Positions 2,877-31,013 of a stretch of 64,000 nt of DNA are shown piece by piece. Source of the DNA: Streptomyces mirabilis (GTDB lineage Bacteria; Actinomycetota; Actinomycetes; Streptomycetales; Streptomycetaceae); assembly GCF_018310535.1 (NCBI RefSeq), contig NZ_CP074102.1, positions 8,370,001 through 8,434,000 of the forward strand. Direction: 5' to 3'. The position numbers and the translations under genes are program-made. Position 1 is the first letter of the stretch, and every line of letters begins with the position of its first letter. The notes under the pieces are model-generated. The model worked only from the letters and a program-made list of their open reading frames with translations. It was not told where the DNA came from and made no database searches.

Positions 2877-4370
<1,494 letters not shown>

Positions 4371-17338: not shown

Positions 17339-19502
<2,164 letters not shown>

Positions 19503-19602
19503 CCGGCCGTTTCCTAACTTCTCGCGATGTGATGTGGCGAGGCTCAATGGATTTCTCGCGCAGAGCCACCAGTTATCGTACCCAGGCACTCGATCCTGAA
19601 GG

Positions 19603-19636
19603 GGGGAAGGATTTTTCCCAGGATGAATCCTTCCCC
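19603..19636. promoter_or_regulatory. XRE-type operator, inverted GGGGAAGGATT pair
   Basis: GGGGAAGGATT at 19603-19613 and AATCCTTCCCC at 19626-19636 are perfect 11-base inverted repeats. Each half is the core of the motif found near two XRE-type regulator genes (27376, 29607) and a related one at 30995. It sits upstream of the oxidoreductase gene at 18543-19502. Confidence 0.65.
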
Positions 19637-19843
19637 TGCGCAGGGGTGGGTCGACCGTGCAAGCTCTATCTGCCTGGCAGCATCGTCCTTGGCAGGAATT
19701 CTCGCGTCCGGACGACTGCGCATGCATCGATCCGGTGACTAATAGGTCCCGGCAAAAAAGATCCGTGGCCGCAATGCTCGCCTACAGTCATGCTGCGGCT
19801 GCGGCTGCGACCCAATTCCCATTCCACCCCTGTTTGGAGAATC

Positions 19844-19909
19844 GTGTTCATCGTCAACGCGTACGTCGCTACGTCCGCGTCCGAACCGCTCGCTCAGGCC
19901 ACCGTCGTA
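19844..19909 (+). pseudogene. N-terminal fragment of a zinc alcohol dehydrogenase
   Basis: The GTG-initiated stretch MFIVNAYVATSASEPLAQAT matches the start of NAD(P)-dependent zinc alcohol dehydrogenases (family style MFTVNAYAAPSATEPLAPTT). After about 22 codons the similarity is lost, and no catalytic domain follows. It is a relic. Confidence 0.5.
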
Positions 19910-20545
19910 TGGGGGCGTCCGCGTACAGGAAGTGTCCCGACCGCCGGTATCGAGTCAGCGGGCGGCTATGTACCTGTAGGCCACTCAAGCGGTACGCCGA
20001 CCACGCAGCCGGCTCCCCGGCTGCAGAACCAGAGGCAGCCGTAGTGACTTCCTCCGCACGGCCCGTACACGACGTACTGCCGTTCCCAGAGGGAGAAGCA
20101 TCGATGACGATGACGTACAACCACCTCGAAGGACGGCGGCTTGATCGAGTGCCGCGAGGCCGAGGACGATGTCCTGCACTGAGCATCTCCGCCCCCGCTC
20201 TGGAGTGGGCGGGCGAGCAGGGTGCCGAAAGCGTCGGCGGCCTGGGCGCCGCCGACCCGCCTGCCCGGTTCGGACACGCCGCTGGCGGTGCCGGCGCGCC
20301 GAGGCCTGCCGCTTTCCAGCACCACAGCCGTGGTCGGGGCATGACCAGCGAGCCGGCCGCTGGGGCAACCGTTGGCCGCCCCCTGCAAGGGAGATCTTGA
20401 TCAGGGGGTGCTTGCGGGCCGCTCGGCGATGACGGGGGGCCACCCCGTGCCCTTCGCCCGGCGTCTCGACCTCCAGGTGAGGACGGGGTTGGTGGTGAAG
20501 GGGCGTTTGGGGCGCGGGATCGCGGCAAGGTGCGAAGCTGTGGGT
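19910..20545. other. Region without a supportable gene
   Basis: Open frames occur on both strands but none has a recognisable fold, a good ribosome site and normal codon use together. A stretch near 20104 (ATG, MTMTYNHLEGRRL) is preceded by GAGGGAGAAG, which could be a ribosome site, but the frame then reads as low-complexity Arg/Gly/Pro. The region is most likely decayed coding sequence next to the XRE gene. Confidence 0.5.
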
Positions 20546-21418
20546 GTGCGACGCGATCCGAGCCTGGAGGAACTGGGCGCCTTCCTCAAGGCGCGCCGTG
20601 CCCAGCTGAGTCCCGACAAGGCCGGGCTGCCCGACAACGGTGAGCCCCGGCGTGTTCCCGGCCTGCGGCGTGAGGAAGTCGCTCAGATCGCCGCGATCAG
20701 CACCGACTACTACACCCGGCTCGAGCAGGGACGTGTCCAGGCGTCGGCTGCCGTAGTCGACGTGCTCGCACAGGTGCTCCGCCTCGACGGCGATCAGCGC
20801 GAGTACCTCCTGACCCTCGCAGGGAAAACGGCCTCGCCCCCTGTCAGCCGGAGCGTTCGCCAACGAGTCCAGCCGCAGATGCAGCACCTGCTCGACGACC
20901 TCTCCCTGACCGCGGGCTTCGTCATCGGGCGCAACACGGACCTGCTGGCGTGGAATGCCATGGCCGCCGCCCTGGTGATGGACTTCGGACATGTCCCGGA
21001 GGAACAGCGGAACTACGTGCGCCTGGTGTTCACCGAGCCCGCCATCCGCGTGCTGTACCGGGACTGGGAGGACATGGGTCGCCTGGCCCTGTCCCATCTG
21101 CGCATGGACAGCAGACGGAACCCTGATGACCCTCGACTGACTGCCCTCGTCGAGGAGCTTTCCGTGCTGGATGCGCATTTCCGCCTGTGGTGGACCTCGC
21201 ACGATGTCGCCGTGCGGGCCGGCGGTACGAGGCTGCTCCGGCATCCCGTGGTCGGCGACCTGACCCTCGAGCGGTCCACCTTCATGTGCGCCGAGGATCC
21301 CGAGCAGCAGCTCGTCGTGTGGACCGCGGAGCCAGGAAGCCCCGCTCACGAGGCTCTGCGCTCTCTGGCGTCCACGATCGAGAGGGCGCCTGAGGGACTG
21401 GACGGCGCCGCCGTGTGA
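20546..21418 (+). CDS. XRE regulator with MmyB-like ligand domain (copy 1)
   Basis: About 290 residues. An N-terminal XRE helix-turn-helix (RRVPGLRREEVAQIAAISTD, then YYTRLEQGR) is followed by a C-terminal MmyB-like ligand-binding domain (FVIGRNTDLLAWNAMAAAL, NYVRLVFTEPAIR, HPVVGDLTLE). In family members this domain binds a fatty-acid-like ligand. It is one of three close paralogs here (27428, 28702). GTG codons at 20540 and 20546 are possible starts. Its likely targets are the oxidoreductase genes at 17.3-19.5 kb, which carry the shared motif. Confidence 0.88.
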   Translation: MRRDPSLEELGAFLKARRAQLSPDKAGLPDNGEPRRVPGLRREEVAQIAAISTDYYTRLEQGRVQASAAVVDVLAQVLRLDGDQREYLLTLAGKTASPPVSRSVRQRVQPQMQHLLDDLSLTAGFVIGRNTDLLAWNAMAAALVMDFGHVPEEQRNYVRLVFTEPAIRVLYRDWEDMGRLALSHLRMDSRRNPDDPRLTALVEELSVLDAHFRLWWTSHDVAVRAGGTRLLRHPVVGDLTLERSTFMCAEDPEQQLVVWTAEPGSPAHEALRSLASTIERAPEGLDGAAV

Positions 21419-21527
21419 CGCCTTCGCCGAGCAGGCACATCGGACCTGGGCCCTGGAGACGAGGTTCGTCGCCGGACCGGCGGCGCAGGCTTCATCACCG
21501 CGTCGGCACGTGGCTTGCCGTGGTTCA

Positions 21528-22484
21528 TCACGAGGCGCTCTGGAAGACACGCTTGGCGTTTGCCGTCGTGAGTGACCGCCACGTGGCGCCTTTCGCCGGC
21601 GGCTCGGCGGCGTCGATCGCCGCGATGTGCGCGTCGGCCAGCGGGGACGGCGTCCAGCAGTAGTCACTGCCGAAGAGCACGCGGTCCGGGTCGACGAGCT
21701 TCAACAGCGCCGGCACGTGTCGTGGGAAAGCGGTGCCCGCCACGTCGTAGTACAGACCGCGCAGTTGCTGCACCGCGTCCAACCGGGGCGGCTGCTGCGA
21801 CTGCAGGAACAGGCTCATGAACTCGTTGATGCGATCAGCGAGGACGGGCACCGCACCGCCGCAGTGCGGGACGATCACTTTGATGTTCGGGTGACGTGTC
21901 AGGACGCCCGCCATCACCATGTCGGTGACGGTACGGGCCGTGTCGAAGATGTACTCGACCATCGGCCGCGGTCTGCCGAGTGCGGACTGTTCCCAGCACA
22001 CCGGTGAGGTGGGGTGCAGGAAGACGACGGCCTGGCGGCGGTCGAGTTCGGCGAAGACCGGCTCCAGGCGCTGGTCGCCCAAATACACCCCGTGCGTGTG
22101 GGTCAGCAGGGCCACGCCGTCGGCGTCGAGTCCGTCGAAGGCGAAGGCGATCTCCTCCAAGGATCCGTCCACGTCGGGAAGGGGCAGCGAGGCGAAGGTG
22201 CCGAAGCGACCCGGGTGGCCCCGGGCCAGTTCGGCGGTGTACTCGTTGACGCGGCGGGCGAGGAGGCGGGCCGCCTTGTCGTCGCCGAAGTGCACGCCGG
22301 GTGAGGACACGGACAGCATCGCGGTCTCGATGCAGTTGCGGTCCATCAGGTCCAGGTGGGCTTGCACGGACCATGACGGCCAGCCGCCCATGCCGTCGGG
22401 GTGGCCGTGGCCGGCTGCCGTCGCCTGCTGGACGTAGAAGTCGGGGAGGAGATGGGCGTGGACGTCGATGAGGCCGGTGGACAT
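21528..22484 (-). CDS. Amidohydrolase of the ACMSD / hydroxybenzoate decarboxylase type
   Basis: 318 residues of the metal-dependent TIM barrel: the metal motif DVHAHLLPDF at the start, the barrel His in VIVPHCGGAVPVLADR, and the metal-binding Asp in VLFGSDYCWTPSP near residue 265. This subgroup contains 6-methylsalicylate, gamma-resorcylate and aminocarboxymuconate-semialdehyde decarboxylases, so non-oxidative decarboxylation of an aromatic acid is likely. It is the last gene of a probable three-gene unit read leftwards (DUF2255, antiporter, this gene). The start at 22484 has an AAGGGA site. Confidence 0.85.
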   Translation of the reverse strand: MSTGLIDVHAHLLPDFYVQQATAAGHGHPDGMGGWPSWSVQAHLDLMDRNCIETAMLSVSSPGVHFGDDKAARLLARRVNEYTAELARGHPGRFGTFASLPLPDVDGSLEEIAFAFDGLDADGVALLTHTHGVYLGDQRLEPVFAELDRRQAVVFLHPTSPVCWEQSALGRPRPMVEYIFDTARTVTDMVMAGVLTRHPNIKVIVPHCGGAVPVLADRINEFMSLFLQSQQPPRLDAVQQLRGLYYDVAGTAFPRHVPALLKLVDPDRVLFGSDYCWTPSPLADAHIAAIDAAEPPAKGATWRSLTTANAKRVFQSAS

Positions 22485-22531
22485 GACGGGAGGTCCCTTC
22501 TGGTGTGTGGTGTCGTCGAGGCCGGCTCGGC

Positions 22532-24118
22532 TCACTCCACCTGCTCGCGTCCGGCCAGCCGCACCTCTTCGTAGTCCAGGGCGGTCTGGAGGCGGCGCAG
22601 CACGGTGTCGTCGATCCGCTGTTCGTCGCGCAGGCGGACGACGGTTGCGCGCTTGTGGGCGATGAGGGCGAGGCGGAGGTCGGTGTAGTGGCGGTTGTGG
22701 AGCAGAGCGGGATCCTCGTCGGTGCCGGCGCCTTCGGCCCGTACGGTCGCCAGGTGGGCTTCGTACTCCTGGCGCAGCCACTCCGTGACCTTGGGAGTGG
22801 TGCCCAGTTCGACGGCGAGTTCCGGGAGCGCCTTGACGGCTTCCTCGGTTGCCGTGGTCTCGGCGAGGATCTGTTCCTCGTCGACGGAGGTGTCGCGGGG
22901 CAGCCGGGCCCAGCGCACCACGCCCGGCAGCAGCAGTCCCTGCACGACGAGGGTCACCACGATGACGCCGGAGGTGACGAAGACGATGAAGGCGCGGTCG
23001 GGGAAGGGTGCGCCCGAGTCGACGGTCTCCGGTACGGAGAGCGCCACGGCCAGCGACACCGCGCCCCGGAAGCCGGCGAAGCCGCTGACGGTGCGTGCCC
23101 GGTGACTGATTCTCCGCAGCCGCTGCTGTGGACGTCGGTCGATCAGGCGGATCAGGTAGGCGGAGGAGAACAGGAACGCGAACCGGACGAGGACCAGAAC
23201 CAGGCTGACCACACCGACGGCGATCAGTGCATCCCGCAGATCTGCGCGGCTCAAGTGGCGGAACGCGTATTGGAGTTCCACTCCGACCAGGACGAACAGG
23301 GCGCCGTTGATGATGAAGGTCGCCAGCGGCCAGAACGCCAGTGCCTGGCGTCGGTGCTCGGCCCGGATCAGGCTCGGAGCCACCTGGGCCATGATCAGTC
23401 CGCTCACGACGACAGCGAGGACACCCGAGGCGTGGATCAGTTCGGCGAGCAGATAGGCCGTGAACGGTGCCAGGATCATGACGAGATTGCCCAGCAGGGG
23501 ATCGGCCAGGCGGCGCCGGAGGTTCATGTTGACCCAGGCGACCGCCACGCCGACCGCGGCCCCACCGCCGTACGCCAGCAGGAACAGCGCTCCGACGTGC
23601 GCAAGGGTGAGGTGCTCCTCGCCGACGGTGATGCCGACCGCCAGCCCGTAGATGACCAGCGCCGTGCCGTCGTTGACGAGGCTCTCCGCCCGGAGCACGG
23701 TGACCTCACGGCGCGGCAGGGAACCGGCCAGCGCGCCGACCGCGGTCGCGTCGGTGGGCGCCACGGCCGCGCCCAGAACCCACGCCGGCCCCCACGGCAG
23801 TCCGAGCGCGTGCCCGGCGGCCGCGACGGCCCACGCGGTGAGGATCACCAGGACCGTGCTGAGCAGGACGATGCCGCGCAGGTTCGAACGGATCTCCCGC
23901 ATGGACGTGGTCAGGCTCTCCCAGTACAGCAGCACGGGGAGGAAGAGCAATAGCACGACTTCGGGCGGGAGTTGGGTTTGGCGGACGGCCGGCACGAGCC
24001 CGATGAGGGCGCCCACGATCAGTAGGACGACGGGCGGCGCGACACCGAAGCGCTGCCCCAGGGCATTGCCCAGCAGCACGGCCGCGCCCAGGACGACGAC
24101 GAGTTCAAGACCGAGCAT
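22532..24118 (-). CDS. Na+/H+ antiporter, CPA1 family
   Basis: 528 residues with about 12 membrane helices, starting MLGLELVVVLGAAVLLGNAL. The ion-binding signature ESLVNDGTALVIYG and the preceding APTDATAVGALAGSLPRR are typical of the bacterial NhaP/CPA1 branch. A cytoplasmic tail of about 120 residues rich in Glu and Arg follows. It exchanges sodium or potassium for protons across the cell membrane. It lies 47 bases before the amidohydrolase gene, so exporting charge or acid produced by the pathway is a possible role. Confidence 0.92.
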   Translation of the reverse strand: MLGLELVVVLGAAVLLGNALGQRFGVAPPVVLLIVGALIGLVPAVRQTQLPPEVVLLLFLPVLLYWESLTTSMREIRSNLRGIVLLSTVLVILTAWAVAAAGHALGLPWGPAWVLGAAVAPTDATAVGALAGSLPRREVTVLRAESLVNDGTALVIYGLAVGITVGEEHLTLAHVGALFLLAYGGGAAVGVAVAWVNMNLRRRLADPLLGNLVMILAPFTAYLLAELIHASGVLAVVVSGLIMAQVAPSLIRAEHRRQALAFWPLATFIINGALFVLVGVELQYAFRHLSRADLRDALIAVGVVSLVLVLVRFAFLFSSAYLIRLIDRRPQQRLRRISHRARTVSGFAGFRGAVSLAVALSVPETVDSGAPFPDRAFIVFVTSGVIVVTLVVQGLLLPGVVRWARLPRDTSVDEEQILAETTATEEAVKALPELAVELGTTPKVTEWLRQEYEAHLATVRAEGAGTDEDPALLHNRHYTDLRLALIAHKRATVVRLRDEQRIDDTVLRRLQTALDYEEVRLAGREQVE

Positions 24119-24185
24119 GGCGCTTACTCCAGTGCTGGACCAGCTGTTCGTGGGGGTTCAGCGGCTTCCGCGGGGATCGTTCTGC

Positions 24186-24557
24186 TCATCGGGGGATCAG
24201 CCGTAGCGTCGTGGAGCGTGCGGCGACCATGGGGTCGACGTAGGCGCCGCCGAAGCGGCCGTACTTGGTGCGGTACGCCGTGTCGATACGGTCGTTGATC
24301 TCGTCGTCCTGCACCTCCACGAAGGTGACGTCTTGGGCGACTCCGCCGGAGCGGATGTGCCCCTCGTAGCTCGCACGGGCCGTACGCCACCAGCCGCCAT
24401 CCGTGCCTCGGAAGGAGCGGACGTAAAGGTCGTCACCGTCGCGGACGACCCAGATCGGCACCGGCCTCCGCAGAGTGCCGTTGCGCCTGAGCGGTGCCAT
24501 CTCCAACTCGTCAGCGGTGGCGATGCGGTTGAGGTCATCGCTCGTCCATGCCGTCAT
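24186..24557 (-). CDS. DUF2255 family protein
   Basis: 123 residues, fully matching the style of DUF2255: WTSDDLNRIATADELEMAPL at the start, IWVVRDGDDLYVRSFRGTDG, then AYRTKYGRFGGAYVDPMVA near the end. It is a small soluble beta-rich fold related to pyridoxamine-oxidase/FMN-type split barrels in appearance; no function is known. It leads the unit with the antiporter (67-base gap). Confidence 0.85.
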   Translation of the reverse strand: MTAWTSDDLNRIATADELEMAPLRRNGTLRRPVPIWVVRDGDDLYVRSFRGTDGGWWRTARASYEGHIRSGGVAQDVTFVEVQDDEINDRIDTAYRTKYGRFGGAYVDPMVAARSTTLRLIPR

Positions 24558-24569
24558 GGGTGTGTCTCC

Positions 24570-24760
24570 GATCTCCTTGATCCGGTGAGTACGCGAGGAA
24601 GCTCGTCAGGTCGTCGGGCCGCCCTCGGGAAGAGATTCGCCGCAACACCGACGAAGGCCATGACCGCGGTGATGGCCAGGCTTTCGCGCAGGCTGTGCGG
24701 GATGTCGCCATGGGCTGCCAACAGGGCGCCGAACGGACATGCGGGGGCTCCTGAGACCGA
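24570..24760 (-). pseudogene. Fragment of a small membrane protein
   Basis: On the minus strand the sequence reads SLRESLAITAVMAFVGVAAN followed by LFPRAARRP. This looks like the last membrane helix and tail of a DoxX-like or transporter protein. The upstream part is out of frame and no start is present. It is a relic with uncertain family. Confidence 0.3.
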
Positions 24761-24813
24761 GGAAGGCGTAGGTACCGATGTGTTGCTGTCGAGGGGTTTC
24801 GGAAGACCTGCGG

Positions 24814-25238
24814 TCAGGCGGGACCTGGGGTGAGAGGCGCACCGAGGTAGCTACGGGTGATGCCGGGCGAGTCCTCGAAGACGCGGTAGTCGGTGATCAG
24901 GCCGTCGTGATGGTGAACCGCAGGATCATCTCGCTTTCGAGCACCTGCCCCAAGGGATGGAACCGGGAGGCGTACCGGCCCGGTACCAGCACCTGTCCGT
25001 CGGTCTCCACCAAGGAGCGCAGCTCAAATGCGAGCGGCTCGACGGCCGCGAAGAACGCGGCGAGAGACTGCCGGATCTCCTCCGGCCCGCTGCGGCGCCC
25101 AGCCCATGGCGTCAGGGCCGGATCACCGGGGATCGTCCAGGTGGCATCGGGAGCGAAGTGCGGGAGGATCCGTTCCATGTCGCGCGTACCGAGCGCCTTG
25201 AAGTACGCCTCGACGGTGGCAATCGCCTCGCTGGTCAT
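24814..25238 (-). pseudogene. NTF2/SnoaL-like protein with a frameshift
   Basis: The gene starts well (MTSEAIATVEAYFKALGTRD, typical NTF2-like), but near 24905 one base is missing from the expected ACG-GAC-GGC. The frame ends early at 24897 with RFTITTA. In the next frame the natural continuation is intact (DGLITDYRVFEDSPGITRSY, then LGAPLTPGPA) and stops at 24814. It is either a recent inactivation or a sequencing error. It lies last in the unit read from 27153 leftwards. Confidence 0.7.
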
Positions 25239-25346
25239 GGCGTCGGTCCGTTTCTGCTGGGCTGCGGTGGGCGAGCGCTCACCGCTCGGTGGTGGCGGCG
25301 GTGGTGGGCAAGGCTCATCCCGCACCCACCACCGCCGGGCTTCATG

Positions 25347-26363
25347 TCACGGACGCAGCAGCGCCTTGATGGCGCGGCGCTCGTCCATGGCCTTGTAGCC
25401 TTCGGCGACCTCGTCCAGGGGCAGGGTGAGGTCGAAGACCTTGCCCGGGTTGATACGGCCGCTGACCACGCGGTCGATCAGGTCGGGAAGGTAGGCGCGC
25501 ACGGGCGCAGGGCCGCCGCGTAGACCGACGTGGGAGAAGAAGAGTTCCTGGCCGTCGATCTGCACGCCGTGAGGCATGCCGACGAAGCCGACGTTGCTAC
25601 CCGGGCGCGCGGACTGCAGGGCCTGGTGCATCGACTCCTGGGTGCCGACGCACTCCAGGACCGAGTCGGCGCCTATGCCGTTCGTCAGCTCCTTGACGCG
25701 GGCGACGCCCTCCTCGCCGCGCTCGGTGACGATGTCGGTGGCACCGAACTCCAGGGCCAGCTTCTGCCGGGATGCGTGCCGGCTCATGGCGATGATGCGT
25801 TCGGCGCCCAGTTCCTTCGCCGCGATGACACCGCACAGGCCCACCGCACCGTCACCCACGACCACGGCCGTCGAACCCGGCTCGACCTCGGCCGCCTTGG
25901 CGGCGTACCAGCCGGTGCCCATGACGTCGGAGAGGGTCAGCAGATTCGGGACCAGCTCTGAGGCCGGCTGCTCCGGGGTGGCGACGAGGGTGCCGTCGGC
26001 GAGGGGGATGCGGACGTATTCGGCCTGGCAGCCGTTGGGGAAGTCACGGTGCTGGCAGGAGGTGTGGTAGCCGGCCCGGCAGACCGGGCAGGTGTTGTCA
26101 GAGGCGATGAAGGAGCCGATGACGAACTGGCCGGGCCTGACATTGGATACGTCGCTGCCGACCTCCTCGACGATGCCGACGTACTCGTGGCCGATCGGCT
26201 GCGGCTCGGTGACTGGGTTGATGCCCCGATAGCTCCACAGGTCGGAGCCGCACACGCAGGTGGCGACGGTACGGATGACGGCGTCCGTCGGTGCGACGAT
26301 GTTCGGTTCGGGGACGTTCTCCACCCGGATGTCACCAGGCGCGTGGATGATGGTGGCTCGCAT
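25347..26363 (-). CDS. Zinc-dependent alcohol dehydrogenase
   Basis: 338 residues of the medium-chain dehydrogenase family. The catalytic zinc site is TCVCGSDLWSYRG with GHE at IGHEYVG. A structural-zinc loop is present but with three Cys (DNTCPVCRAGYHTSC). The nucleotide site is VVVGDGAVGLCGVIAAKELGA. It oxidises alcohols or reduces aldehydes with NAD(P). It lies in a minus-strand set with the cupin and carboxymuconolactone-decarboxylase-type genes upstream and an NTF2-like pseudogene downstream, under a shared XRE-type operator at 27376. Confidence 0.93.
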   Translation of the reverse strand: MRATIIHAPGDIRVENVPEPNIVAPTDAVIRTVATCVCGSDLWSYRGINPVTEPQPIGHEYVGIVEEVGSDVSNVRPGQFVIGSFIASDNTCPVCRAGYHTSCQHRDFPNGCQAEYVRIPLADGTLVATPEQPASELVPNLLTLSDVMGTGWYAAKAAEVEPGSTAVVVGDGAVGLCGVIAAKELGAERIIAMSRHASRQKLALEFGATDIVTERGEEGVARVKELTNGIGADSVLECVGTQESMHQALQSARPGSNVGFVGMPHGVQIDGQELFFSHVGLRGGPAPVRAYLPDLIDRVVSGRINPGKVFDLTLPLDEVAEGYKAMDERRAIKALLRP

Positions 26364-26399
26364 GATGCTCTCTCAGGTCGCGTCGGATCTGGCGTGGTG

Positions 26400-26789
26400 T
26401 CAGGGGCGGGTACGGGCGTTGGCGCGCGGTCCGTTGTACTCGTCGTCCGAGACGTGCTCGAGCCAGGTGGCGTCGTCCGTCTCCCACAGGGCGAGGTGGG
26501 TCATGAACTGGTCGGGCGCTGCACCGTGCCAGTGCTGCTCACCCGGAGGCGTGTGGATGACGTCTCCCGGGTGGGCCTCGATGATGTTGCCGCCACGGGA
26601 CTGCACCAGCGCGATGCCCTCGACGATGTAGAGGGTCTGGCCCAGGCCGTGGGAGTGCCAGGCGGTGCGGGCGCCAGGAGTGAAACGGACCATGTTGGCC
26701 CGCATCCGAGAGGGCTCCTCGCCACGGTGGATCACGTCGGCGTAGGCGTCGCCGGTGAACCATTCGGCAGGCAGCTTCAGCAGTTCCAT
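26400..26789 (-). CDS. Cupin domain protein
   Basis: 129 residues, one cupin barrel. Metal ligands are visible in GARTAWHSHGLGQTLYIVEG and in PPGEQHWHGAAPD. The form is close to the small cupins found beside carboxymuconolactone-decarboxylase-type genes (mandelonitrile-lyase-like cupins). The reaction is unknown; oxidation or isomerisation of a small carbonyl compound is plausible. It is tightly spaced with both neighbours on the same strand. Confidence 0.85.
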   Translation of the reverse strand: MELLKLPAEWFTGDAYADVIHRGEEPSRMRANMVRFTPGARTAWHSHGLGQTLYIVEGIALVQSRGGNIIEAHPGDVIHTPPGEQHWHGAAPDQFMTHLALWETDDATWLEHVSDDEYNGPRANARTRP

Positions 26790-26820
26790 GGTGTGTCTGT
26801 CCCTTAATGGGAGCGGTACC

Positions 26821-27153
26821 TCAGCCCGACTGGTCCGACTTCTCCACGATCGCCTTGAGCTGGGTCACCGCGGTCATCGCGTTGGGCCATCCGGCGTAGA
26901 AGGCCAGATGGGTGAGGGCCTCCACCAGCTCGTCCTTGGTCACGCCGTTCTCCAGCGCCTTGCCGAGGTGGAAGCCGAGCTGGTCGTTGCGGTACAAGGC
27001 GGCCAGAGCGGTGACGGTGACCAGGCTGCGGTCTCGAGGGGACAGGCCCGGGCGTTCCCAGATGTCGCCGAACAGGACCGTGTCGGTCACCTCGGCGAGC
27101 TTCGGGGCGAATTCCTGGATCGCCGGCGGTGCGAACTTCTTCCGCTCGGTCAT
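26821..27153 (-). CDS. Carboxymuconolactone decarboxylase family protein
   Basis: 110 residues, all helical, with the AhpD/CMD pattern: LGDIWERPGLSPRDRSLVTV-like start, then HLGKALENGVTKDELVEALT and HLAFYAGWPNAMTAV. No CxxC motif is present, so it is the decarboxylase-like and not the peroxidase-like branch. The function in redox-type gene sets is not established. It is the first gene of the minus-strand unit that faces XRE copy 2 across an operator. Confidence 0.88.
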   Translation of the reverse strand: MTERKKFAPPAIQEFAPKLAEVTDTVLFGDIWERPGLSPRDRSLVTVTALAALYRNDQLGFHLGKALENGVTKDELVEALTHLAFYAGWPNAMTAVTQLKAIVEKSDQSG

Positions 27154-27375
27154 GGGGTGGTGCTCCTTGCGTGTTCAGGGATTCGGGTGGCCCGGCCTGC
27201 GGCCGGGAGCTGTTTCATATTCGCAAACGAATTCCGTACTCAGCGTTTGACGGCTTGCCTGTTCGGTTGAAGGCTTTCCGCGGGCCGACCGCGCTCGCCG
27301 ACCCCGTCTTCGACCCTGTCACCATCGCGTGAGCCCGCAATGGGGAGAATTCCACCCCGGGCAAGGCTTATCCAG

Positions 27376-27392
27376 GGAAGAATCCTTCCCCC
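27376..27392. promoter_or_regulatory. XRE-type operator between divergent genes
   Basis: GGAAGAATCCTTCCCCC occurs here, and the identical 17 bases occur on the minus strand at 29607-29623. The core GGAAGNATCCTTCC is nearly palindromic. It lies about 36 bases before the start of XRE copy 2 and about 220 bases before the divergent decarboxylase-type gene, so it can control both. Confidence 0.7.
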
Positions 27393-27427
27393 CCTCGTCA
27401 GGACGGGGCGGTGCGAGACTGGTCGGC

Positions 27428-28297
27428 ATGACCAGCGACGCGCATGTGAACGAGCTGGGAGCATTTCTCAAGGAGCAGCGGGCCGAGTTGAGTCCGCGCA
27501 CCGTCGGTCTGCCCGACACTGGTGGCCCGCGACGTGTGCCCGGCCTGCGCAGGGAGGAGGTCGCCCTGCTCGCGGCCATCAGCTCCGACTACTACGCACG
27601 GCTGGAGCAGGGGCGTATCCAGCCCTCTGCGCCGGTGCTGGCGGCTCTCGTCAGGGTCCTGCACCTGAACAACGACCAGCGGGACCACCTCTTCGAGCTG
27701 GCCGGTCGCCAGGCGGCTCGCCCGCGCCGTCAGGCCGCACAGAAGGTGCAACCGCAGCTGCGTCGCCTGCTCGACGATCTCACCGCGACCCCCAGCGTGG
27801 TGATCGGTCGCCGCATGGACATCCTGGCCTGGAACTCTCTGGCGGCCGCTCTCTTCACTGACTTCCATCGCGTCCCGGAGAAACGGCGCAACTACGTCCG
27901 GCTGCTCTTCACCGAGCCCGCCTTCCGTGATCTCTACGTCGACTGGAGTACGGTCGCCCGGAGCTGCGTCGCGCAACTGCGCCTGCTGGCCGCCCGGTGC
28001 CCCGGGGAACCCGGATTGACGGCGCTCGTCGGCGAGTTGTCGGTGGCGGACGCCGATTTCCGGCAGTGGTGGGCAGGCCGCCACCTGGCCGGCCTGCGGG
28101 TGGGCGCCAAGAAGCTGCGCCACCCGGTCGTCGGCGACCTCACGCTCGACTGGGACAGCCTGACCTGCTCGGCCGACCCCACGCAGCAGTTGGTGATCCT
28201 GACCGCGGAGCCCGGGACGCGGTCCCATGACGGACTGCGCTTCTTGGCGTCGCGGACTGCCGATCCGTACGAGCCGGAACGGGATGTGACAGCTTGA
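27428..28297 (+). CDS. XRE regulator with MmyB-like ligand domain (copy 2)
   Basis: 289 residues, with the XRE helix-turn-helix at about residues 30-75 (RRVPGLRREEVALLAAISSD, YYARLEQGR) and the MmyB-like domain after residue 110 (VVIGRRMDILAWNSLAAALF, NYVRLLFTEPAFR, HPVVGDLTLDWD). It is closely related to the copies at 20546 and 28702. The ATG at 27428 begins MTSDAHVNELGAFL. The operator at 27376 suggests autoregulation and control of the divergent unit. Confidence 0.9.
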   Translation: MTSDAHVNELGAFLKEQRAELSPRTVGLPDTGGPRRVPGLRREEVALLAAISSDYYARLEQGRIQPSAPVLAALVRVLHLNNDQRDHLFELAGRQAARPRRQAAQKVQPQLRRLLDDLTATPSVVIGRRMDILAWNSLAAALFTDFHRVPEKRRNYVRLLFTEPAFRDLYVDWSTVARSCVAQLRLLAARCPGEPGLTALVGELSVADADFRQWWAGRHLAGLRVGAKKLRHPVVGDLTLDWDSLTCSADPTQQLVILTAEPGTRSHDGLRFLASRTADPYEPERDVTA

Positions 28298-28304
28298 GTG
28301 GCAC

Positions 28305-28620
28305 TCAGAAGGTCAGGACGAGCCGGCCTCGCACCCCGCCGGCCGCCGGCACCTGATGGGCCTCGGCGGCCCGTTTCGCCGGAAACGTCTTCGCGGCCCG
28401 GAGGGGTGATCCGGCCCTCCTCCACCTGCTGCGGGAGCCGGTCGAGCCTGGCGCGCTGACGGGCGTAGCGGAACACGGCGATCGGCTCGACAGACGACGT
28501 CTCGCTCGCCGGGACCCTCGAAGCCGCGCAGCGGCACCACAGGGCCGCCGCCCCGGACGGCCCGAGCGGTGATAGCGCCGAGCAGCGCCCCGTCGAGGAG
28601 CCCCTCGACGCGTCGGGAAC
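28305..28620 (-). pseudogene. C-terminal remnant of a quinone-oxidoreductase-type gene
   Basis: The last part reads TFPAKRAAEAHQVPAAGGVR, GRLVLTF and stop, the usual end of MDR-type oxidoreductases. Just upstream the same protein continues in other frames (RYARQRARLDRLPQQVEEG; VEGLLDGALLGAITARAVRG). At least two frameshifts separate these parts, and the N-terminal two thirds are missing. An XRE-type motif remains upstream at 28653. Confidence 0.65.
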
Positions 28621-28652
28621 TTCCGCGCGTACCCGGTCCGGGTCCCTGACCA

Positions 28653-28670
28653 GGGGAAGGGCTTTCCCCC
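28653..28670. promoter_or_regulatory. Divergent variant of the XRE-type motif
   Basis: GGGGAAGGGCTTTCCCCC is a near palindrome similar to the site at 30995. It lies just upstream of the oxidoreductase remnant and 32 bases after the end of XRE copy 3. Its use is doubtful because the gene it would serve is broken. Confidence 0.35.
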
Positions 28671-28701
28671 GAATCCGACCGCGCTCATCTTGGGAAAGGG
28701 C

Positions 28702-29574
28702 TCACCGGAAGGAGCCGGATGCCGTCCGCTTCTGGTCCGCTGCCCAGGATGCCAGCAGACGCAACCCGTCGTGCGAAGGGGAACCGGGTGCTGCGGTCCA
28801 CACGATGATGTGCTGCTCGGGATCCGTGGCACAGGTGAGCGTGTCCCAGTCGAGCGTCAGCTCCCCGACCACCGGGTGACGAAGCTTCTTGGTGCCCTTG
28901 CCCCGCGTGGCGACGTCGTGCTCGGTCCACCACTGCCGGAACTGCGCGTCGCGTGCAGAGAGCTCCTCGACCAGATCGGTGAGGCGCTGGTCGCCGGGGT
29001 AGCGCGCACTCTGCATGCGCAGCTGGGCGATGGCCAGACGAGTGACCTCTTCCCAGTCCGCGTACAGCTCGCGCATCCAGGGTTCGGCGAACAGCAGCCG
29101 GACGAACACGCGCTCCTGCTCCGGGTAGCGCCCGAAATCGGTCCACAGGGCGGCGGCGAGCTGGTTCCAGGCCAGGATGTCGGTCCGCCGACCGATCACG
29201 AACGCCGGAGTGGCGGTGAGATCGTCCAGCATGCGCCGTAGTTGGGTGTCCACCTGCTGGCGCTCGCCTGCCCTGGGCGTGCGCACCGTCTCCTTCGCCG
29301 CGAGCTCGAACATGTAGGTGCGCTGGTCCTCGTTGAGGCGGAGCACTTGGGCGACCTCGTTCAGCAGGGGACCCGACGCCTGGAGACGGCCCTGCTCGAT
29401 CCGCGCGTAGTACTCGGTGCTGATCGCGGCCAGAAAGGCCACTTCCTCGCGGCGCAGACCGCGCACACGCCGCCGTTGGCCGCCGCGCAGCCCGACCTCC
29501 TCGGGGCTGAGCTCGGCACGGCGGGCCTTGAGGAACTCTCCCAGCTCGTTCAGGTGCGGTTTGCGGTTCATCAC
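28702..29574 (-). CDS. XRE regulator with MmyB-like ligand domain (copy 3)
   Basis: 290 residues; helix-turn-helix RRVRGLRREEVAFLAAISTE and YYARIEQGR, then the MmyB-like domain (FVIGRRTDILAWNQLAAALW, FVRLLFAEPWMRELY, HPVVGELTLDWD). It starts MMNRKPHLNELGEFL. The site GGAAGAATCCTTCCCCC lies 33-49 bases before the start on the same strand, at nearly the same distance as for copy 2. This supports autoregulation by a common mode. Confidence 0.9.
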   Translation of the reverse strand: MMNRKPHLNELGEFLKARRAELSPEEVGLRGGQRRRVRGLRREEVAFLAAISTEYYARIEQGRLQASGPLLNEVAQVLRLNEDQRTYMFELAAKETVRTPRAGERQQVDTQLRRMLDDLTATPAFVIGRRTDILAWNQLAAALWTDFGRYPEQERVFVRLLFAEPWMRELYADWEEVTRLAIAQLRMQSARYPGDQRLTDLVEELSARDAQFRQWWTEHDVATRGKGTKKLRHPVVGELTLDWDTLTCATDPEQHIIVWTAAPGSPSHDGLRLLASWAADQKRTASGSFR

Positions 29575-29606
29575 CTCCAGCGTCGCACAGAGGTCAGGCG
29601 TTGTGA

Positions 29607-29623
29607 GGGGGAAGGATTCTTCC
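29607..29623. promoter_or_regulatory. XRE-type operator upstream of XRE copy 3
   Basis: On the minus strand the sequence is GGAAGAATCCTTCCCCC, identical over 17 bases to the site at 27376-27392. Position and orientation relative to the regulator gene are also conserved. Confidence 0.7.
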
Positions 29624-29763
29624 TACGTTGCGTTCGACCAGCGTGGGCAAATCATGCGTTTCGACGTTTGTATCCGCATGTGACGAGACTCGGCGCGGCC
29701 AGGTCGCGCCTGGTGAGCGCGACCTGGCCGCCGAGTGAGCGCACCGCTGGGACGTCTGGGACG

Positions 29764-30462
29764 TCAGCCCAGTGCCTTGAGCAGCTCCTGGGCCAGTGCA
29801 ACCGCCGAGCCAGGGTTCTGGCCGGTGAACAGGGTGCGGTCGACCTCGACGTGCGGGGTGAACGGCTCGGCCTCGCGGTAGTCCGCCTTGAGCTCGCCGA
29901 CGAGGCGGTCCTGCAGCAGCCACTTCGCGCGGTCCGCGAGACCGTTCTGCTTTTCCTCAGCGTTGGAGAGGCCGGTCAGGCGGTAGCCGGTGAACGGGGA
30001 CGTCCCGTCCGCACCGATGGTGGCCAGGAGCGCCGCGGGGCCGTGGCACACCAGGGACACCGGCTTGCCAGAGGCGAGCCATTCGGTGAGCAGCTTGCCG
30101 GACGCGGCGTCGTCGGGCAGGTCCTCCATCGGGCCCCAGCCGCCGGGGTAGAACACGGCGACGTAGTCGTCGATGTTCACGTCCTCGATGCGCATCGGAT
30201 GCGCCAGCTCGGTGGCCTCGCGCAGTGCGGCCCGCATGCGCTCGGCGCCTTCCTCGCCGCCGTTGAACTCCGGGCTGAGGCTGAGTGCGTCCGCCGTGGG
30301 CGGCACACCTGCGGGTGTGGCGGCGGCGATCTCGTACCCGGCCTCCTTGAAGACCTGGTACGGGCCGAGCGCTTCTTCGGCCCAGAAGCCGGCGGGCTGC
30401 CGGGTTCCGTCGGCCAGCGTCCAGTGGTCGGACGCGGTGATCACGAAGAGGATCTTCGCCAT
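29764..30462 (-). CDS. DJ-1/PfpI type 1 glutamine-amidotransferase-like protein (second copy)
   Basis: 232 residues beginning MAKILFVITASDHWTLADGT, with the nucleophile elbow LVCHGPAALLATIG and the acidic partner in FYPGGWGPMEDLP. It is the same Hsp31-like subfamily as the gene at 10995, with high similarity throughout. It probably deals with reactive carbonyl damage (family inference). It lies 20 bases after an NTF2-like gene on the same strand, and both follow an XRE-type motif at 30995. Confidence 0.9.
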   Translation of the reverse strand: MAKILFVITASDHWTLADGTRQPAGFWAEEALGPYQVFKEAGYEIAAATPAGVPPTADALSLSPEFNGGEEGAERMRAALREATELAHPMRIEDVNIDDYVAVFYPGGWGPMEDLPDDAASGKLLTEWLASGKPVSLVCHGPAALLATIGADGTSPFTGYRLTGLSNAEEKQNGLADRAKWLLQDRLVGELKADYREAEPFTPHVEVDRTLFTGQNPGSAVALAQELLKALG

Positions 30463-30482
30463 GGGGGTCTCCCGGTGCTGGA

Positions 30483-30875
30483 TCAGCCCTTGAGGGCTTC
30501 CTGAAGGACGTGGCTGTCGGCGGCCTGCTGCATCCGTACGGCCTTGCCGTCGCGGATGGTCCACAGGTGGATGAAGCGGACGTCGGCCTTGTTCCCGGTC
30601 TTCGTCTCGGCGTGGTAATGCCCGTACACGAAGACGTGTCCTTGGTCGTCCGCGTAGAACTCCTCGGGCACCGCGCCGAAGGACTTGTAATTCGGCATCA
30701 TCCCGCCGAAGAAGTCCTTCGCCGCACTGTCCCAGCCGTGGTACACGCCGCTGTTCGGAAAGCCCGGGGTGATGTCCCAGATGAGGTTCGGCGCCATGAT
30801 GTCGGCGGTTGCTTCCGGGGACATTCCGGATTCGTAGAGCCGGCGGATGAGGGCGATGTTCGGGGAGTCGGACAT
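30483..30875 (-). CDS. NTF2/SnoaL-like protein
   Basis: 130 residues: MSDSPNIALIRRLYESGMSP, VYHGWDSAAKDFFGGMMPNY and HLWTIRDGKAVRMQQAADSH. This is the ketosteroid-isomerase-like (NTF2) fold as found in small proteins induced by redox regulators. AAGGAG precedes the ATG by about 8 bases. It forms a two-gene unit with the DJ-1 family gene. No reaction can be assigned. Confidence 0.85.
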   Translation of the reverse strand: MSDSPNIALIRRLYESGMSPEATADIMAPNLIWDITPGFPNSGVYHGWDSAAKDFFGGMMPNYKSFGAVPEEFYADDQGHVFVYGHYHAETKTGNKADVRFIHLWTIRDGKAVRMQQAADSHVLQEALKG

Positions 30876-30994
30876 AGTTCTCTCCTTGCGGAGGCGCATC
30901 AGATGGAGGCCCTGAAACGGCACATGGTCGCGCGGCTTGTCGCATGTCGTGCTCGCCGCGTGATGAAGCATTGCATCGGAAGGACGCGGTGTGA

Positions 30995-31013
30995 GGGGGA
31001 AGGAATTTTCCCC
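30995..31013. promoter_or_regulatory. XRE-type motif upstream of the NTF2-like/DJ-1 unit
   Basis: GGGGGAAGGAATTTTCCCC resembles the motif at 29607 (GGGGGAAGGATTCTTCC) with a changed right half and better symmetry. It lies about 120 bases before the NTF2-like gene. Confidence 0.5.

Follow-up and report, generated by a model that had tools for sequence, protein, structure and literature searches.

The closest described relatives of the system considered here are MmyB, a pathway-linked activator of neighbouring genes in the methylenomycin cluster of Streptomyces coelicolor, and MltR (Caur_2278) of Chloroflexus aurantiacus, which provides a solved structure for the MmyB-like family (PDB 3pxp), has a fatty-acid ligand and combines a helix-turn-helix (HTH) with an MLTR_LBD/PAS-like domain. 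To our knowledge, few members of the MLTR_LBD family have an assigned operator. Here we analyze a stretch of 64,000 nucleotides from Streptomyces mirabilis (contig NZ_CP074102.1, positions 8,370,001 to 8,434,000; this whole stretch is the window, and positions are counted from its first letter), which codes for three XRE-type regulators of the same family as MmyB: regulator 1 (R1; plus strand, 20546-21418, start approximate), regulator 2 (R2; plus strand, 27428-28297) and regulator 3 (R3; minus strand, 28702-29571). A palindromic motif precedes two of them and some of their neighbours, and because many other actinobacteria have it next to regulators of this kind, it is very probably a conserved operator, the binding site of a subfamily of MmyB-like regulators.

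In the window, the 17-base sequence GGAAGAATCCTTCCCCC has exact copies at 27376-27392 (plus strand) and 29607-29623 (minus strand), each finishing about 36 bases upstream of a regulator ATG, those of R2 (27428) and R3 (29571, minus strand), which bears out an identity reported in the original prediction. Near copies lie at 19602-19618 (minus strand, one mismatch), 19621-19637 (plus strand, two mismatches) and 30995-31011 (minus strand, two mismatches); with a weaker copy at 3950, the window holds six matches with at most three mismatches as against 0.14 expected, and none of 100 shuffles reaches six. When scored with a matrix trained on other genomes, five sites attain at least 14 bits, whereas ten Markov shuffles average 0.0 such sites. 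These are the main box before R2, AGGGAAGAATCCTTCCCC (27374-27391, plus strand, 23.5 bits), which abuts the -35 place and ends 36 bases before the ATG; the box before R3 (29608-29625, minus strand, 20.4 bits), at -54 from its ATG; the box before a SnoaL-like/DJ-1 gene pair (30996-31013, minus strand, 23.6 bits); and two overlapping boxes 16 bases apart (19603-19620 and 19619-19636, taken on the minus strand, 24.4 and 15.1 bits) before an oxidoreductase gene at 18543-19502. Of the related copies listed in the original prediction, those at 19603 and 30995 are thus retained and the one at 28653 is discarded, as its 5.2 bits are at chance level (scores above 5 bits occur at 0.02% of positions in the background, or some 15 times in 64 kb). 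Across the genome (9.62 Mb in two contigs), the pattern GGAWRRATYCTTCC is matched with zero mismatches at four places, all within this stretch; a second pattern, which the 30996 box fits with zero mismatches, brings in two further places when one mismatch is allowed, 935120 and 2554472, both within called genes. Elsewhere in the window, the palindrome GAGGAAGGCTTCTTCCTC at 3951-3968 scores 10.7 bits by the matrix.

The operator was defined from relatives of R2. When R2 was used to scan genome contigs, 79 loci resulted (from the best 80 of 124; designated by L numbers), and a palindromic matrix was trained on 66 of their upstream regions (L039-L105 without L051, which has a broken frame; L106-L117 were left out); genes were called with a GC-frame script, and some of the starts are wrong. 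The matrix reads GGGGA-RRR-AT-YYY-TCCCC and carries 18.4 bits, as opposed to 7.1-8.3 bits in five control runs with the same training on random pieces of the same loci. Of the relatives' promoters, 61/66 have a box of at least 13 bits, and the best site begins 52-57 bases upstream of the start codon in 48/66, with 38/66 at -53/-54. Throughout 78 loci (937 kb; L051 left out) there are 110 sites of at least 14 bits, 66 preceding the matched regulator and 44 elsewhere in the loci, against one in shuffled sequence; only two of the 110 fall wholly inside called genes, though called genes make up 73% of the bases. As the training loci are partly close relatives, these matrix and locus counts are not independent. 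Among 29 further regulator loci, four repeated training promoters, and of the 25 remaining, unseen relatives 20 have a box of at least 12 bits. The idea of one motif for all MLTR regulators of the S. mirabilis genome was rejected: it has 22 MLTR_LBD matches in total, and no site of 10 bits or more was found in the stretches (about 1.5 kb on each side) surrounding the other 19. In L106 and L108-L115 a different long inverted repeat, GCTGCCTGGC...GCCAGGCAGC, can be made out by eye some 25-65 bases before the aligned regulator start and is perhaps the own operator of that more distant MLTR group.

Alignment of 50 promoters places the end of the box about 37 bases upstream of the start codon. It is directly followed, in the -35 position, by a conserved C[TC]C[AT]C and, further on, by a weaker ACACT-like element at about -13 to -8, the position of which suggests that the transcripts of box-led regulators are probably leaderless. 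Upstream of the main box, extra boxes at a distance of 16-17 bases, 32-34 bases or both occur in 34 of 58 promoters, 24 of which have both (the count omits L051, L067, L071, L076, L094, L106-L117 and promoters without a main box of at least 12 bits near the start), whereas five control windows, each two bases wide, gave 0, 1, 1, 1 and 4; the third-box class is three offsets wide and the control windows two. The R2 promoter has two such weaker boxes (27342-27373, plus strand) at the places where relatives have phased boxes at -16/-17 and -32/-34: the outer one (27342-27359) scores 8.7 bits and the inner one (about 27358-27375) less than 2 bits by the matrix, yet it keeps six of the eight half-site letters. 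Many phased arrays sit between divergent genes, and one array can therefore serve both promoters. As for the pair at 19603, which lies 0.9 kb away from R1, a box is present at the corresponding place in L049 and L056, and a second box is visible by eye in L049.

The operator, its position, its phasing and its link to the subfamily and its neighbours can be read from the sequences themselves, and they make it likely, in our judgment, that we are dealing with a local, autoregulated regulon of one MmyB-like (MLTR_LBD) XRE subfamily, in which the motif would be the dimer-bound operator and the arrays would serve both promoters. An operator in the regulator's own promoter that is conserved between species is found for R2 and R3 and not for R1; the operator is also found before neighbouring non-regulator genes, in the window at 19603 and 30996. 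We infer that a dimer of such a regulator would bind the palindrome GGGGA-N8-TCCCC via its HTH domain; the box abuts the -35 place of the promoter from which the regulator itself is expressed and which is apparently leaderless. Where a two- or three-box array lies between divergent genes, further dimers would bind side by side in steps of 16-17 bases, with one array serving both divergent promoters. Given their near-identical boxes, R2 and R3 would probably cross-regulate each other as well as the neighbouring dehydrogenase, CMD, SnoaL and DJ-1 genes. A small hydrophobic compound resembling a quinone or an aldehyde might be the signal for the C-terminal PAS-like domain. A thiol switch common to all members found no support, as an invariant cysteine was sought in 68 regulators and none was found, the best columns having Cys in 34 and 29.

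With respect to the direction of control, we lean slightly towards activation because the box adjoins the -35 place and its spacing to a weak -10 is nearly constant. The same operator and proteins could instead be configured as ligand-released repressors, wherein a dimer sitting beside the -35 place bars RNA polymerase from both divergent promoters, and we regard this as a serious contender even if we would not call it probable: the box does abut the -35 place on the regulator side, and repressors are common among local regulators of detoxification genes. However, an activator is slightly more in keeping with the near-constant box-to-start distance (the above 38/66 promoters), the weakness of the promoter elements and the precedent of MmyB, although common descent of the promoters could also account for the constant distance.

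The link between motif and regulator extends to the genus level. Using a strict pattern, GGGARRRATYYYTMCCC, and a cut-off of E <= 1e-85 for subfamily regulators, we surveyed 150 genomes (designated by G numbers), of which 13 have the pattern and 42 the regulator. The regulator is present in 11/13 genomes with the pattern versus 31/137 without it (10/12 versus 31/137 on excluding the S. mirabilis genome; Fisher p = 4e-5), and outside that genome 14 of the 17 distinct strict-pattern sites lie within 10 kb of a subfamily regulator, with exceptions in G069, G077 and G097. The genome-wide motif search upstream of such regulators that the original prediction had put forward thus turned out positive.

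Further, the half-site tends to change with the recognition helix. When the box nearest to the start is taken in each of 62 promoters, GGTA replaces GGGA in both half-sites in five (L069, L070, L075, L082 and L087), and helix residue 54 of the corresponding regulators is E, V, Q, Q and Q, respectively; in all, the double GGTA is found in 5/6 promoters of regulators with Q, V or E at this residue and in 0/56 of those with D, H or R. If the best-scoring box is counted instead, both halves are GGTA in four promoters of one clade, to which the nearest-box count adds L069. In another clade, 10 of the 12 members (L085, L086, L092, L093 and L095-L100) have a lopsided box, with one half GGGAA-like and the other GGCAG or GTCAG, and all twelve have V at helix residue 53.

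These associations bear on whether another regulator might bind the box, with the MLTR genes being merely among its targets. TetR-, MarR- and other regulators do occur nearby in the window, and G069 and G097 have the strict pattern in genomes without a subfamily regulator. Nevertheless, we consider this improbable, given the co-occurrence over the 150 genomes, the tendency of half-site and recognition helix to vary jointly, and the fact that the neighbouring gene changes from locus to locus, which leaves the subfamily regulator as the partner that stays the same across about a dozen actinobacterial families. Finally, that these inverted repeats with G+C-rich ends arose by chance or from base composition, or form RNA hairpins (terminators, for instance), is hardly conceivable in light of the five window sites where 0.0 are expected, their fixed position before start codons and the occurrence of the pattern read backwards in 1/150 genomes as against 13/150 for the true one.

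Several observations nonetheless weigh against a local regulon with a subfamily-wide operator. Boxes are wanting in 5/66 training promoters (L067, L071, L076, L078 and L094) and in 5/25 unseen ones; of the latter, L153 has a doubtful start, and L154, L155, L158 and L168 have a related GGGACA...GGCC repeat by eye. R1 and its ortholog in L094 are without a box, the promoter of R1 having none in the matrix and array scans. At the genome level, the strict pattern is unmatched in 31 of the 42 genomes with the regulator, the site in G077 is on a different contig from the regulators and, as noted, G069 and G097 have the pattern and no subfamily regulator. R3, with its E54, departs from the link of half-site and helix, and four of the five GGTA cases belong to one clade (98/88) with L069 elsewhere in the tree, so that at most a few events lie behind this link. 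Lastly, zinc ADH and AKR genes are roughly as common among control genes of the same loci (see below). The single regulon of the original prediction hence survives in part: one operator type does tie MmyB-like XRE regulators to redox-type gene sets, but R1 has no box of its own.

The three regulators share an N-terminal XRE-type HTH (HTH_31), above the Pfam cut-off in each, and a C-terminal MLTR ligand-binding domain (PF17765; E 2e-52 to 6e-59). With pairwise identities of 58-61% they are indeed paralogs, though not the close ones that had been supposed. In searches with a profile of these regulators, 3pxp is the best sequence match in PDB (E 3.9e-11), and it also ranks first in a Foldseek search with the predicted model of R2 (mean pLDDT 83.6, pTM 0.60; E 1.5e-10); the whole-chain TM of 0.46 implies that the domain placement relative to 3pxp differs or is uncertain. 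In the tree, R2 falls among R2-type proteins of other species, while R1 groups with its L094 ortholog (82% identical) and then with R3. Two or more subfamily regulators are present in 25/78 loci, often an R2-type gene together with an R3-type gene of 80-95% identity. Of the genes in such multi-regulator loci 45/60 have a box, including 36/39 of those nearest to R2, 9/18 nearest to R3 and 0/3 nearest to R1 (of these three, one is cut by the locus end and one is only 51% identical). The tree and the conserved co-location of R2- and R3-type genes give no support to the tandem duplication within 12 kb that had been proposed; going by them, R1, R2 and R3 are an old, conserved co-located grouping of paralogs and not recent tandem copies.

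Among the genes behind the boxes, the pair at 19603 precedes a gene of the zinc-type alcohol dehydrogenase (ADH)/quinone reductase family (18543-19502, minus strand; Pfam ADH_N; 45% identical to the gene in L053). Divergent from R2 is a set identified by profile matches (21528-27153, minus strand), comprising CMD (26821-27153), cupin, zinc alcohol dehydrogenase, SnoaL_2, DUF2255, Na+/H+ exchanger and amidohydrolase genes, which from their order and strand would form one transcript. The 30996 box leads a SnoaL_2 (NTF2-like) gene (30483-30875, minus strand; profile match) and a DJ-1/PfpI gene (29764-30462, minus strand), for which glyoxalase III HchA ranks first among NCBIfam profiles without reaching its cut-off; several of the reference entries used for these profile assignments begin one codon early. 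Over the 79 loci (L051 included), 70 non-regulator genes are first behind a site, in 53 loci, and their Pfam families are DLH (17), zinc ADH (10), CMD (8), MFS (7), AKR (6), NAD_binding_10 (4), cupin (3), short-chain dehydrogenase (2) and flavodoxin (2). Among 70 control genes of the same loci there are 8 zinc ADH, 6 AKR, 2 MFS and at most one each of DLH and CMD, as counted in the first 25 of 69 families listed. Hydrolases, CMD and MFS thus distinguish the box-led genes, whereas the reductases mark the neighbourhood as a whole, which weakens the gene families as proof of a redox role. The divergent genes vary between loci; the regulator stays. That the box-led genes remove quinones or aldehydes is a fair guess from gene content, and the electrophile or lipid-like signal formerly proposed is likewise a guess from the neighbouring genes.

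The window copy of this grouping shows decay in its sequence. Between the converging R2 and R3, positions 28304-28643 hold what is left of the C-terminal coding portion of a zinc-type oxidoreductase gene: these roughly 340 bases, beside the discarded copy at 28653, are 78-82% identical in seven loci, with one shorter match at 85%, and longer relatives exist in L053, L061 and others, several with an upstream box. Behind the 19603 pair, positions 19833-20128 retain two pieces of an ADH gene region, which match L049 with 85% identity over 75 bases and 83% over 70 bases, with the gene body gone.

An operator with near-constant spacing in about a dozen actinobacterial families makes the subfamily testable and its targets predictable from sequence; paralog cross-regulation lends itself to a simple test on the near-identical boxes of R2 and R3, and cooperative binding to one on the phased arrays. 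Much more tentatively, ordered arrays of up to three dimer sites at 16-17 bases per dimer might serve this widespread subfamily as its general bidirectional switch, with two or three co-located paralogs forming a cross-regulated network that would read one shared array and respond to a quinone- or aldehyde-like metabolite on which the neighbouring enzymes act to remove it; the joint change of half-site (GGGA to GGTA) and helix residue 54 (D to Q, V or E) could be a first step towards a DNA-recognition code of a large orphan family.

As a kind, local autoregulated one-component regulators are known already; what may be undescribed is this subfamily's operator with its phased array. The 3pxp protein, while the best sequence and fold match for R2, differs from it in being only 19% identical. 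MmyB belongs to the same domain family and is likewise tied to its neighbours, but in place of its antibiotic pathway the window has reductases, hydrolases, CMD and SnoaL genes. The lambda CI-type operators, too, combine an XRE-type HTH with roughly 17-base palindromes and several adjacent boxes between divergent promoters. In comparison, the boxes of the type seen in the window lie 16-17 bases apart from centre to centre, touching or overlapping, and their regulators have no phage link and bear a PAS-like domain where lambda CI has the CI C-terminal domain.

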